A DNA stretch of 64,000 nucleotides from Saccharothrix sp. HUAS TT1 (GTDB lineage: Bacteria; Actinomycetota; Actinomycetes; Mycobacteriales; Pseudonocardiaceae). The stretch is taken from contig NZ_CP160453.1 of assembly GCF_040744945.1 (NCBI RefSeq), positions 6,882,001 to 6,946,000 of the forward strand, given 5' to 3'. Positions 9,839-14,817 of this stretch are shown piece after piece; position 1 is the stretch's first letter; each line of letters opens with the position of its first letter. The position numbers and the translations under genes are program-made. Below the pieces are notes generated by a model. That model saw only the letters and a program-made list of their open reading frames with translations, made no database searches and was not told the DNA's origin.

Positions 9839-10804
9839 TCAGACCAGGCCGCGCCGGGACGCCTGGACACCGGCCTGGAAGCGCGTCGTGGCGCCGAGTT
9901 CGTCCAGCAGCGCGGCCATCCGCCGGGTCATCGTCCGCTGGGTCAGGCCGAGCGAGCGCATGATCGCGGCGTCCTTCATGCCCACGGCGAGCAGCGTCAG
10001 CAGCTCCCGGTCCCGGTGGGCGCCGCGCAGCGCCGTGCCGATCGGGGTCGCCCGTTCCCACAGCAGGTCGAAGCAGGCGACCAGCGCGTCCAGCAGCGGG
10101 GAGCGGTGCACGAGGATGCGCACGCCGGTCTCCGACGCCTCGAAGCTGAGCGGGATCAACGCCGTGCGCCGGTCCGCGATCATCATCTTCATCCGCACGT
10201 CCGGCAGGGCCCGGGCGTCCTCGCCCGCCTCGACGTAGGCGGTGATCTCGGCCAGGCGGTTCGCGTCGTCCAGGACGGGCAGGTGGTAGAGCGTGCGGTA
10301 GGCCACCCCGCGCCGCAGCGCCTGCATCTCGGCGGCGTTGTGCTCCGGGGCGCCGCCCAGGTACGGCGGGCAGTCGATGAGCAGCACCTCCTCCCGCGCG
10401 GTGGACTGGAGCTGGGCGATGTGGTGGCGCACGGCGGGCCCGCCCTCGATCAGCTCGACCAGGTCGCCGGGTTCGCCGCGCGGCGCGTCCTCGTACTCCG
10501 CCGCGAGCCCGTGGGCCACCGCGCGCAGCCGGTCGAGATCCTGGGTCCGGCGCAGCGCCAGGGCGTCGAGGGCCACCTGCGGCGGCGCGGACACGTAGCG
10601 GGCCGGGCGGCCGGCGAGCTTGGTGACCAGGCCCGCCGCGCTCAGGGTGGCCAGCGCCCGGGAGACCCGCCCGGCGGGCAGGTCGAGCGCCGCGGCGAGC
10701 GCGCCCGCGTCGACCCGCGGTCGGCGCAGCAGCCGCAGGTAGACCGCGCCCTCGGTCGGTCCCAGCCCGACCGGTTCGAGGAACCCTGGGTCGACGGCGT
10801 CCAC
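9839..10804 (-). CDS. TrmB-like/LuxR-type dual HTH transcriptional regulator
   Basis: 321-residue cytoplasmic DNA-binding protein. The N-terminal 75 residues (GLGPTEGAVYLRLLRRPRVDAGALAAAL...) form a TrmB-type winged helix. A middle region (about 100-250) is like the phospholipase-D-like effector domain of TrmB-family proteins. The C-terminal 60 residues (LLTLLAVGMKDAAIMRSLGLTQRTMTRRMAALL) are a LuxR-like HTH. This architecture is common in actinomycetes. The gene diverges from the next HTH gene and lies between the two protease genes that share an upstream element, making it a candidate for their regulation; that link is inference. Confidence 0.78.
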   Translation of the reverse strand: MDAVDPGFLEPVGLGPTEGAVYLRLLRRPRVDAGALAAALDLPAGRVSRALATLSAAGLVTKLAGRPARYVSAPPQVALDALALRRTQDLDRLRAVAHGLAAEYEDAPRGEPGDLVELIEGGPAVRHHIAQLQSTAREEVLLIDCPPYLGGAPEHNAAEMQALRRGVAYRTLYHLPVLDDANRLAEITAYVEAGEDARALPDVRMKMMIADRRTALIPLSFEASETGVRILVHRSPLLDALVACFDLLWERATPIGTALRGAHRDRELLTLLAVGMKDAAIMRSLGLTQRTMTRRMAALLDELGATTRFQAGVQASRRGLV

Positions 10805-10921: not shown

Positions 10922-11824
10922 ATGAACAGAGAAGTTCGGCAACTCCTGCGCACCGGCCCGTTCGAGGTGGCGCTCGACGCGGCCATCGAGGCTTCCGGGC
11001 TCACCCTGGACCGGCTGTGCAGCAGGCTGGCCGACCGAGGTGTGATCGTGAGCCGCACCTCCCTCTCGTACTGGCGGCACGGCCGCAGCCGACCCGAGCG
11101 CGCCGCGTCGCTGACCGCCCTGAGCCGGCTGGAGGAAATCCTCGGGCTGCCCGCGGCGTCGCTGGTCGTGCTGCTGGGCGCCCGCCGGCCGCGGGGCCGC
11201 ACACCGCGTCGCGCGCCCGGGACGCTCTCGCGGCGCGAGCTGTGGCCGTCGTGCGGGCCGCTGCTGAACGGCCTGGACGTGTCGTCCGACCGGCGGCTGG
11301 ACCTGCTGAGCGTCAACGACGCGGTGGTCGTGGACGAGCGCACCGGTGAGCGCCGGCAGCGCTGCCGGCTGGTGGTGCGCGCCGCGGCCGACCGCGTGGA
11401 CCGCCACCTGGTGTGCCACGAGATCGACGACCCCGCGTTCCCGGCGCCGAGGTTGACCGGGGTGGCGCACGCGCGGCGGGGCCGGGTGCGCCGGGACGAG
11501 GCGGGCCGGTCGCTGGTCGCGGAGTTCCTGTTCGACCGACCGCTCGACCGCGGCGAGCACACCGTGCTGGAGTACGAGCTGAGCCTGCCGGACGGGCTGC
11601 CGCTGGACCACTTCTACCGGCGGTTCAGCCGCCCGGTCGGCCTGTACACGGTGCAGCTGCGGTTCGCGGGCCGGCCGCCGGGACTGGTGCGCCGCTACGA
11701 CAAGGCCGGCCTGCGCGGCCCGGAGCGCCACGTCGAAGACCTCTGGCTGGGCGCGGCGGGCACCACGGCGCTGGTGGTCCCGGCGGTGCGACCGGGCACC
11801 GTCGGCGTCCGGTGGGAGTGGTGA
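10922..11824 (+). CDS. XRE-like HTH protein with uncharacterised C-terminal beta domain
   Basis: 300-residue protein. Residues 1-85 read as a Cro/XRE-like helix-turn-helix (LTLDRLCSRLADRGVIVSRTSLSYWRHGRSRPER followed by LTALSRLEEILGLP). A basic linker (ARRPRGRTPRRAPG) leads to a beta-rich region of about 180 residues containing NDAVVVDE, LVVRAAADRVDR and YELSLPDGLPLDHFYRRFSRPVGLYTVQLRF. I do not recognise that domain. ATG at 10922 follows a purine-rich stretch. It is directly upstream of the S8-S1 protease gene and divergent from the TrmB-like regulator, so a local regulatory role is plausible. Confidence 0.7.
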   Translation: MNREVRQLLRTGPFEVALDAAIEASGLTLDRLCSRLADRGVIVSRTSLSYWRHGRSRPERAASLTALSRLEEILGLPAASLVVLLGARRPRGRTPRRAPGTLSRRELWPSCGPLLNGLDVSSDRRLDLLSVNDAVVVDERTGERRQRCRLVVRAAADRVDRHLVCHEIDDPAFPAPRLTGVAHARRGRVRRDEAGRSLVAEFLFDRPLDRGEHTVLEYELSLPDGLPLDHFYRRFSRPVGLYTVQLRFAGRPPGLVRRYDKAGLRGPERHVEDLWLGAAGTTALVVPAVRPGTVGVRWEW

Positions 11825-12000: not shown

Positions 12001-14817
12001 ATGCCCTGCACATCCCGATCGCTGCCTGCCGCGGTCGCCGCGCTGGTGGTGTTGGCCCTCGCGGCGCTCGCACCGCCCGCGTGGGCGGCCGAGCCGGAGG
12101 GCGAGGTCCGCGTCGCGGCGAAGAACCCCGTTCCCGGTGTGTACGTCGTCAAGCTGAAGGACCGCCCGGACGTCGGCGCCACCGCGAGGTCCCTGAACAG
12201 CCGCTACGGCGGCACCACGACGCACGTGCTGGAAAAGGTCATGCGCGGCTTCGTGGTGGAGGACCTGACCGAGCGGCAGGCCCGCCGCCTGGCGGCCGCC
12301 CCCGAGGTCGACTCGGTGGTCCAGTCGGGCACCGCCCGCGCCGCCGACGTCCAGGACAACCCGCCCAACTGGGGCCTGGACCGCGTCGACCAGCGCGACC
12401 TGCCGCTGAACCGGAAGTACGACTACCCGGCCGGCGCGGGCGCCGGGGCGAACATCTACGTCGTCGACACCGGCATCCGGTACACGCACCAGGAGTTCGA
12501 GGGCCGCGCGAAGTTCGCCGCCGACTTCGTCGTCCCCCCGACCAACGGCAACGACTGCGACTCCGCCAAGCAGGGCCACGGCACCCACGTGGCGGGCATC
12601 GCCGCGGGCAAGACCCGCGGCGTGGCCAAGAAGGCGGCGCTGTGGTCGGTGCGCATCCTGGGCTGCCAGTCCACCGGCAAGGACAGCGACATCGTCGTGG
12701 CCGCCGAGTGGATCGCCAAGAACGCGGTCAAGCCGGCCGTGGTGAACATGAGCGTGTACGCCGACGACCCGTCGGTGGGCGTCGAGGCGATCCGGGGCGC
12801 GATCGCCTCCGGCGTGCAGTGGTCCCTGATCACGGGCAACAACGGCGGCAACTCGTGCGACTACGGGCCGGGCAGCCGGGTCGAGACCGGGGTGCGGGTG
12901 GCGAACTCGACCAGCTCCGACCAGCGCGCGGGCGACTCGAACGACGGACCGTGCACGGACCTGTTCGCGCCGGGGTCCTCCATCGACTCCTCGGTCAACA
13001 CCTCCGACACCTCCTACGGCCAGAAGTCGGGCACGTCCATGGCGGCGCCGCACGTGGCGGGCGCGATGGCGCTGCGGCTGGGCGAGCAGCCGTCCGCCAC
13101 GCCGGAGGCCCTGAAGAAGTGGGTGGTCGACAACGCCACCACGGGCAAGATGACCAACATCCGCTCCGGCACGCCGAACCGCCTCCTGCACGTGCCGGTC
13201 GCGGCGCAGCCCGTCAACGACTTCTCGATCGCGTCCACCCCGTCGTCGGTGAGCGTGGACCCGGGCGCCTCGGCGGTCACCACGATCTCCACGGCGGTCA
13301 CCCGCGGATCGGCGCAGAACGTGGCGCTGTCGGCCACCGGCCTGCCGGCGGGCGTCACGGCCGCGTTCGAGCCGTCGTCGGTCACGGCAGGCGGCTCGGC
13401 GGAGCTGACGCTCACCGCGGCGGCGAACGCGAGCCCGGGCAGTTACCGCGTCACCGTGACCGGCAAGGGCGCCGACGCCACGCGGAGCACCGAGGTGGCG
13501 CTGACCGTCAACGGGGAGGTTCCCGACGACTTCGCCCTCACCACCACCCCGTCGAGCGGGACCGTGGCGGTGGGCTCCTCGGTGTCGACCACGGTGGGCG
13601 CGTCCGCGGTCACCGGTGAGACCGGCGCCGCCGTCATCGGCGGCACGCCCGCCACGGTCGCGAAGTACCCGTTCATCATCTCCCAGCACCGGACCGGCGG
13701 CGCCCGTCCGGCCGAGCAGTCGTGCACCGGCTCGGTGGTGGCCAAGCGCGCGGTGCTGATCGCCGCGCACTGCAAGTTCTCCCAGGGTGACCCGAAGTAC
13801 CTGGTGTACGGTCGCGACGACCTCGCGGACACCGGCGCCGGCGCCCGCGTCGAGATCGAGGAGTACCGCGTCCACCCGAGCTACAACCCCAACGACGGCT
13901 GGCGCACCGGTTTCGACGTCGCGGTGATCTTCACCAAGACCGACATCCCCACCCCCGCGGGCATGGCCTACCCGGCCGTCGCCCGCTCCGGCGACTCCCT
14001 GCCGCTGGGCACCCGGGGCGTCGCGATCGGCTACGGCAAGACCGACTCCCAGGACGCCCAGCGCAACAGCAGGCTGTGGGAGACCGTCCTGCCCACCGTG
14101 GACGACCAGAACTGCCGCAACATCAACGGTCAGTTCGACGCCCGCTACATGTTCTGCGACGGTTACGGGACCGGGGAAACCGGGCTGTGCCAAGGGGATT
14201 CGGGGGGACCGTACTACCACAACGGCAAGGTCTGGGGCGTTTTCTCGTGGCTGCGCACCGACTGCGCCTCCTACAACGCCCACGGCAAGCTGTGGGGCGT
14301 CATGGGCGACTGGGTCCACGAACAGCTCGGGGGCACCCCGCCGACCGGTGACATCGCACTGTCCGCCACCGGTTTGCCCACCGGTGCCACGGCGGCCTTC
14401 AGCCCGTCTTCGATCGGTGTCGGGGGCAGCGCCACCCTCACCATCAGCACCTCGGCGTCCACCCCGATCGGTGAACACCGCATCACGGTCAGCGGAACGC
14501 GCGGCACCGTCACCCGGCAGACCACGTACACCCTGACCGTCACCGGCGGCAGCGCCACCCTGTCCATCGCCGACCCCGGCACTCAGACCAGCGTCCGGGG
14601 CAAGCCGGTCACCCTGCAGGTGAGGGCCACGGGCGGCAGCGGAGGTTATCGCTTCACCGCAACCGGCCTGCCCGCCGGCCTGACCGTCAACGCGGCCACC
14701 GGGCTGATCAGCGGCACCCCTACCACGTGGGCGAACTACCGCCCGACGGTGACCGTGACCGACAGCTCCGGGGGTCGGGCGCAGGTGTCGTTCTACTGGT
14801 TCGTGTTCCCCAACTAG
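12001..14817 (+). CDS. Secreted S8 protease with a nested S1 trypsin domain and Ig-like repeats
   Basis: 938-residue two-protease polypeptide. In order: signal peptide (1-29), I9-type propeptide (about 44-115), and a proteinase-K-like S8 domain with Asp156 (VVDTGI), His193 (GHGTHVAG) and Ser346 (SGTSMAAPH). A beta-sandwich repeat follows at 407-503. A second copy starts at 510 but is interrupted at about 543 by a complete chymotrypsin-fold domain: VIGG at 545, His590 in AAHC, Asp639, and Ser734 in CQGDSGGP. The repeat then resumes at 784-849 with DIALSATGLPTG, which matches the second half of repeat 1. An Ig-like domain (850-938) ends the protein. Both triads are intact. A strong terminator follows. 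Probably an extracellular degradative enzyme; the nested layout is unusual. Confidence 0.92.
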   Translation: MPCTSRSLPAAVAALVVLALAALAPPAWAAEPEGEVRVAAKNPVPGVYVVKLKDRPDVGATARSLNSRYGGTTTHVLEKVMRGFVVEDLTERQARRLAAAPEVDSVVQSGTARAADVQDNPPNWGLDRVDQRDLPLNRKYDYPAGAGAGANIYVVDTGIRYTHQEFEGRAKFAADFVVPPTNGNDCDSAKQGHGTHVAGIAAGKTRGVAKKAALWSVRILGCQSTGKDSDIVVAAEWIAKNAVKPAVVNMSVYADDPSVGVEAIRGAIASGVQWSLITGNNGGNSCDYGPGSRVETGVRVANSTSSDQRAGDSNDGPCTDLFAPGSSIDSSVNTSDTSYGQKSGTSMAAPHVAGAMALRLGEQPSATPEALKKWVVDNATTGKMTNIRSGTPNRLLHVPVAAQPVNDFSIASTPSSVSVDPGASAVTTISTAVTRGSAQNVALSATGLPAGVTAAFEPSSVTAGGSAELTLTAAANASPGSYRVTVTGKGADATRSTEVALTVNGEVPDDFALTTTPSSGTVAVGSSVSTTVGASAVTGETGAAVIGGTPATVAKYPFIISQHRTGGARPAEQSCTGSVVAKRAVLIAAHCKFSQGDPKYLVYGRDDLADTGAGARVEIEEYRVHPSYNPNDGWRTGFDVAVIFTKTDIPTPAGMAYPAVARSGDSLPLGTRGVAIGYGKTDSQDAQRNSRLWETVLPTVDDQNCRNINGQFDARYMFCDGYGTGETGLCQGDSGGPYYHNGKVWGVFSWLRTDCASYNAHGKLWGVMGDWVHEQLGGTPPTGDIALSATGLPTGATAAFSPSSIGVGGSATLTISTSASTPIGEHRITVSGTRGTVTRQTTYTLTVTGGSATLSIADPGTQTSVRGKPVTLQVRATGGSGGYRFTATGLPAGLTVNAATGLISGTPTTWANYRPTVTVTDSSGGRAQVSFYWFVFPN

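Follow-up and report, generated by a model that had tools for sequence, protein, structure and literature searches.

A gene in the 8.7 Mb genome of Saccharothrix sp. HUAS TT1 encodes a serine protease of the S8 family behind which a second serine protease, of the S1 family, appears to lie inside an Ig-like repeat. Two protease folds are carried on one secreted chain, and activation of the zymogen would be expected to sever its host domain. This raises the question of whether the S1 protease is truly nested, how such an arrangement came about and what would become of the protein once it is cut. These points were addressed in the window, i.e. the whole stretch of 64,000 nucleotides that was analysed, and among relatives of the encoded protein.

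Architecture of the protein

The order of domains is S8, R1 (a complete repeat), R2N (the opening third of another copy), S1, R2C (the last two thirds of that repeat) and He_PIG (Table 1). Pfam recognised Peptidase_S8 over residues 148-384 (E 1.6e-31, 110.1 bits against a cut-off of 21.8), Trypsin over residues 545-760 (E 2.4e-31, 109.7 bits against 20.6) and He_PIG, also over its cut-off (E 5.5e-14), together with a weak match to Inhibitor_I9 (13.1 bits against 21.2, E 0.17). A sequence-only reading of this DNA had claimed two complete serine protease triads of different folds, and both were found intact and invariant in an alignment of 27 sequences. Two of its labels need qualification. The lead protease is subtilisin-type in this protein and in some relatives, where it is an S8 domain, but in other relatives it is an S53 domain. 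The label 'trypsin' is right for the fold, the S1 domain having the chymotrypsin fold of S1A proteases, but probably not for the specificity, to judge from the pocket residues described below.

Among named proteins, the nearest relatives come from Saccharothrix and Actinosynnema. Another S8-S1 protease, P0006, is called a 'transposase' by one source, apparently a misannotation. Upstream of the protease gene lies a TrmB/MarR-like winged-helix regulator (window 9839-10804, minus strand), and next to the gene is a 300-residue ORF (10922-11824, plus strand) in which Pfam finds nothing at E 0.01.

Table 1. Features of the double protease gene, in window coordinates.
Feature	Residues	Window positions	Strand	Basis
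Whole gene, secreted double protease, 938 aa		12001-14817	+	ORF and Pfam
Probable signal peptide	1-29	12001-12087	+	Hydrophobic N-terminus, read from sequence only
I9-like propeptide stretch	71-111	12211-12333	+	Pfam Inhibitor_I9, below cut-off
S8 (proteinase K-like) domain	120-397	12358-13191	+	D156, H193, S346; Pfam; aqualysin-1
R1, complete beta-sandwich repeat	407-503	13219-13509	+	HMM, AlphaFold strands
R2N, first part of interrupted repeat (strands 1-3)	510-~541	13528-13623	+	HMM, AlphaFold; end approximate
Expected activation site	A544/V545	13630-13635	+	VIGG start, GDSGG Asp; cleavage inferred
S1 protease	545-774	13633-14322	+	H590, D639, S734
R2C, last part of interrupted repeat (strands 4-8)	782-847	14344-14541	+	HMM, AlphaFold
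He_PIG Ig-like domain	857-933	14569-14799	+	Pfam

Interruption of the second repeat

With the S1 domain removed, R1 and R2 share 46 of 97 residues (47%) and are aligned with one gap of three residues, which falls at the seam. The first repeat had been described as running unbroken over residues 407-503 and the second as broken by the S1 protease. Both descriptions held, since R1 is complete and R2 stops at about residue 541 and resumes at 782-784. The arrangement is that of an A1-B-A2 insertion, in that the host sequence is split here and is continuous in an uninterrupted homologue.

A total of 62 rows were fusions of S8 or S53 with S1, of which 55 had S1 nested in the repeat (32 with an S8 and 23 with an S53 lead), one (P0026) had it nested in a PKD domain and six were open. 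The nested counts exclude loci that duplicate the query or proteins already listed, the fragments P0023, P0144, P0146 and P0171 and the animal or distant matches P0121-P0130. The 55 nested rows correspond to 48 distinct proteins in the HMM test and, with another key, to 47 in the cysteine test described below. For the test HMM, 61 proteins, all S1-less, supplied 270 repeat copies, 200 of which went into the model. The HMM detected the upstream half of the repeat in 48/48 distinct nested homologues and the downstream half likewise in 48/48, figures that confirm position and not frequency, as the rows had been labelled nested beforehand with a related HMM. The N-terminal half ended at HMM positions 26-34 in 45 of the 48, the C-terminal half began at position 32 in 28 and within 23-34 in all, and the break thus lies near position 31/32. 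When the flanks were joined with the linkers left in, 12/48 scored as a single full-length domain and the rest stayed separate halves in HMMER. Five open type-I fusions and P0026 lacked the N-terminal half, and in L021 the repeat that follows S1 is whole. Chance likeness between repeats rich in Ser, Thr and Ala was rejected on the grounds that an HMM free of S1 proteins places the halves at nearly fixed positions, and an assembly artefact because the identical order occurs in many separate genomes.

The structure of residues 401-938 was predicted with AlphaFold2 from an alignment of 33 sequences (mean pLDDT 81.8, pTM 0.47). In the numbering of the model the strands of R1 are 7-13, 16-19, 24-35, 40-46, 52-57, 66-73, 80-89 and 94-103. 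The same series recurs in R2, with three strands before S1 (112-116, 119-123 and 127-135) and five after it (385-390, 397-401, 410-416, 424-434 and 437-448). On R1 the break maps between strands 3 and 4, in the connecting loop. Block pLDDT values are 80, 85 and 58 for R2N, the last block taking in the linker, fall to 58 and 44 over the end of R2N and the linker, and are 74-92 for R2C. The structure check suggested with the sequence-only reading was therefore answered in part, the strand series being recovered and the arrangement of the domains not being fixed at this pTM, which is consistent with loosely joined domains. Packing of R2N against R2C in one sandwich is what we infer from the model. 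The rows returned by Foldseek and VIA-align were filled by S1 chains, the top Foldseek row being VesB of Vibrio cholerae (4lk4).

The earlier claim that the S1 protease is nested in an accessory repeat agrees with the 55 of 62 fusion rows, the independent HMM, the uninterrupted homologues described next and the AlphaFold strands. From these comparisons, nesting of S1 within the second repeat is strongly supported by sequence, and its position in the strand 3-4 loop of the Ig-like repeat is well supported.

Relatives with an empty site, a possibly decaying nest or a putative second host

A search for homologues with an unbroken second repeat, which had been proposed as a check, found five. P0077 (Kitasatospora) is S53-R-R-He_PIG, without S1 and with an unbroken R2. 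In global alignments it is identical to nested P0015 at 568/849 positions (67%, length difference 251) and to nested P0024 at 571/849 (67%, length difference 255); the insertion site was read from HMM coordinates because the aligner split the gap (longest pieces 168 and 120). P0199 is a second S53-led empty-site protein. P0168, P0178 and P0185 are S8-R-R proteins in which S1 is absent; judged by eye, they end in a domain similar to the C-terminal one of nested P0022. In the S53 tree, which is poorly resolved, P0077 and P0199 fall among nested proteins. P0144 (Dactylosporangium, 435 aa) has an S1 remnant with 41 matching residues between both retained halves of the repeat and is possibly a decaying nest.

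In P0026 (745 aa) PKD positions 1-42 precede S1 and positions 42-91 follow it, which would put S1 inside a PKD domain. The putative PKD nest is represented by this single protein. In its sisters P0028, P0030, P0031 and P0033 (99/92 in the S1 tree) S1 is followed by a PKD domain that is intact. A locus search with the P0026 stretch gave two loci, both open fusions, P0026's own locus not being among them. The AlphaFold model of P0026 was set aside (pLDDT 56). Of the other open fusions, P0027 lacks a host domain, its chain ending with S1, and L021 (same order) is a separate fusion in which S8 is joined to S1-R-R with both repeats whole. By eye, L021 apparently retains the propeptide region of standalone S1 and not the signal peptide.

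Distribution, lineages and exchange

By source name, repeat-nested proteins occur in Saccharothrix, Actinosynnema, Actinokineospora, Kribbella, Longispora, Catellatospora, Dactylosporangium, Allocatelliglobosispora, Amycolatopsis, Kutzneria, Labedaea, Fodinicola, Streptomyces and Hamadaea. The S53-led nested protein of Streptomyces flaveolus, P0161, carries the source name MycH5. Distribution of the architecture is patchy. A query of R2N-S1-R2C matched 4/17 listed genomes of the window's genus and 17/249 genomes of the family (E <= 1e-60), and a query of the S1 domain, with standalone relatives counted, matched 15/298 genomes of the order (E <= 1e-30) and 2/394 of the class (E <= 1e-45).

The careful S1 tree, from which 9 of 102 rows were omitted (7 in the follow-up topology tests), contains lineage I (39 rows, split 100/98), which also holds open fusions and the standalone S1-PKD proteins of L071 and L072, lineage II (24 rows, 100/100) and a third set made up of other standalone proteins and L021 (30 rows, 95/85). 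With two generic S1 proteins as root, lineage I groups with the standalone set (95/92). A single clade made up of the nested S1 rows alone was rejected (AU p 0.008, for a group named after a quick tree had been inspected). Three other groupings were not rejected, namely lineages I and II as one clade (p 0.138), lineage II joined to the standalone set (p 0.227) and a clade of the nested rows within lineage I (p 0.088). Multiple entry of nested S1 lineages into the repeat is consequently not demonstrated, as the groupings with p 0.138 and p 0.088 survive.

Clearer than the number of entries is exchange. In the S8 tree lineage-II P0038, P0040 and P0134 group with lineage-I P0019 (100/98), and lineage-II P0041, P0042, P0140 and P0142 with lineage-I P0021 (94/90). 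These groupings conflict with the S1 tree and indicate that lead proteases and the two S1 lineages have been exchanged; each lineage is found with both S8 and S53 leads.

Neighbouring S8 and S1 genes

An S8 gene lies alongside on the same strand in 17 of the 31 standalone S1 loci that were fetched with 1.5 kb flanks (some listed matches had no locus), although the 17 belong to a few related groups and are not independent. At L018 the S8 gene alongside is on the opposite strand. The same script found no S8 neighbour at any of five generic S1 loci, two of them overlapping, from the window's own genome. At L075-L078, where secreted proteases are encoded in tightly packed gene groups, the stop-to-stop frames overlap or are at most 40 bases apart, the groups being S8/S1 (L075, L077), S8/S1/S8 (L076) and S1/S8/S8 (L078). 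Both partner proteases end in PKD domains at L075 and L078. The S8-PKD-PKD proteins beside standalone S1-PKD at L071 and L072 fall, on a long branch, within a 40-row clade of the S8 tree (100/100), the other 38 S8 domains of which are all fused. The frequency of S8 neighbours suggests fusion of adjacent genes, and the simplest path would run from adjacent S8 and S1 genes through one fused gene to S1 lodged in the repeat.

Predicted specificity, proposed activation and the possible fate of the repeat

Alignment to trypsins places Gly where trypsin has its specificity-determining Asp189, Leu at the neighbouring position and Leu in place of Gly216, at positions that we take to be 189, 190 and 216 in trypsin numbering. 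With such residues small P1 residues are expected, and the pocket looks elastase-like rather than trypsin-like. S1A proteases need for activity a new N-terminus that pairs with the Asp of GDSG. That Asp is retained (D733), and so a new N-terminus should be required here also. The residue before VIGG in the 48 distinct nested proteins is G in 19, A in 18, S in nine and D and N in one each; a small residue, as found in 46/48, would suit a broad S8 enzyme, the activator suggested in the sequence-only reading, and equally S53 or the predicted elastase-like pocket of S1. On sequence grounds it is plausible that a cut before V545 activates S1.

Our preferred reading, to which we give a probability of roughly 55%, is of a secreted enzyme with two proteases, of which S1 is an elastase-like zymogen housed in the strand 3-4 loop and activated by a cut, with the halves of R2 serving as tether. 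The lead protease would mature itself, and then it, or S1 that is already active, would cleave after A544, whereupon V545 would pair with D733 and S1 become active. The same cut would split R2, leaving R2N on the S8 chain and R2C on the S1 chain. As strands of one sandwich the halves would remain paired and would hold both proteases together without a disulfide. A broad S8 protease and an S1 protease for small residues could then attack the same substrate, to which the R and He_PIG domains would bind. The preferred reading also takes the protein to have arisen by fusion of adjacent genes and lodging of S1 in the repeat.

A variant of this reading, the odds of which overlap with it, has S1 activate itself without S8, the lead protease only digesting substrate. 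The small residue before the cut suits S1's own pocket, with its Gly and Leu at 189 and 190 and Leu at 216, and the lead may be S53 rather than S8. Set against this is the S8 gene next to standalone S1 in 17/31 loci, which suggests partnership, though not activation as such. We regard self-activation as possible without favouring it.

Cysteine is absent from residues 398-544 and 775-938, and the six S1 cysteines (575, 591, 705, 719, 730 and 755) are presumably those of the three usual disulfide pairs, their positions being suitable; a disulfide is therefore unlikely to hold the parts together. The four S8-S1-PKD open fusions P0028, P0030, P0031 and P0033 all have two extra cysteines, one 7-8 residues ahead of the cut and the other at S1 position 10, which, as they are close relatives, may reflect one evolutionary event. 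This pair was found in 0/47 distinct repeat-nested proteins and is absent from P0026 too; lone extra cysteines among the 47 are those of P0160 (S1 position 12) and P0012 (110 residues before the cut). A tentative extension of the preferred reading is that the strand 3-4 loop is an exchangeable protease slot, the split host replacing a disulfide, with the guest also lodged in PKD in P0026. The states of such a slot would be empty, or filled by S1 of lineage I or II, behind a lead of S8 or S53.

P0027 and L021 have neither a nest nor the Cys pair, and a tether is accordingly not universal. They count towards the idea that nesting serves no purpose, S1 having entered a permissive loop, with the halves of R2 separating or being digested and S1 being freed with a tail of R2C and He_PIG. 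The retention of repeat halves in P0144 after most of S1 has gone, and the patchy presence of the architecture, in 4/17 listed genomes of the genus, point the same way. However, both halves are kept in all 48 distinct nested homologues at a nearly constant breakpoint, and the pLDDT of R2C and of the first two R2N blocks also speaks against it, so that a purposeless nest is rated unlikely. That two whole repeats once flanked S1 and each eroded by half, leaving remnants that need not fold together, is improbable, for although complete repeats after S1 are normal in standalone relatives, S1 is directly flanked by two complete repeats in 0/62 fusion rows, the halves abut at a single HMM position almost without overlap or gap, and R2 of P0077 is uninterrupted at the same place.

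Comparison with known systems

The best solved relative of the S8 domain is the proteinase K-like aqualysin-1 (E 1.8e-74), which has the same catalytic domain and triad, but the present protein differs from proteinase K-like subtilases in having another protease, unrelated to S8, in the accessory tail. Compared with the S1A trypsin of Streptomyces erythraeus (4m7g), the S1 domain lacks Asp189 and is embedded in another domain. VesB is likewise an S1 protease with an Ig-fold neighbour, though there the Ig domain follows S1 and is not known to be interrupted. In chymotrypsinogen and the coagulation proteases the parts stay joined by a disulfide after the activation cut, a role that here would fall to the split sandwich. 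If the halves do stay paired, this would be a new way of keeping a cleaved protease tethered.

PA domain inserts occur in subtilases, as mentioned in a 2008 survey of prokaryotic serine proteases (PMC2605481); they place an accessory domain within a protease, whereas here a protease lies within an accessory domain. The S8-S1 architecture is absent from Table 3 of that survey. Literature searches gave no title matching a nested protease architecture, and none was found in the accessible portions of PMC2605481, PMC13114784 and PMC5753285; a term search of the main text of PMC13114784, a survey of A1-B-A2 insertions, gave 0 mentions of trypsin, protease or immunoglobulin. The proteins described here offer a natural series for the origin of a domain insertion, from adjacent genes through an open fusion with a Cys pair to the repeat nest, the PKD nest and the emptied site. 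One domain interrupts another both here and in the A1-B-A2 survey, where the insert is the smaller partner in 77.0% of events (PMC13114784), but in the present protein the guest, at 230 residues against 97, is more than twice the size of its host.
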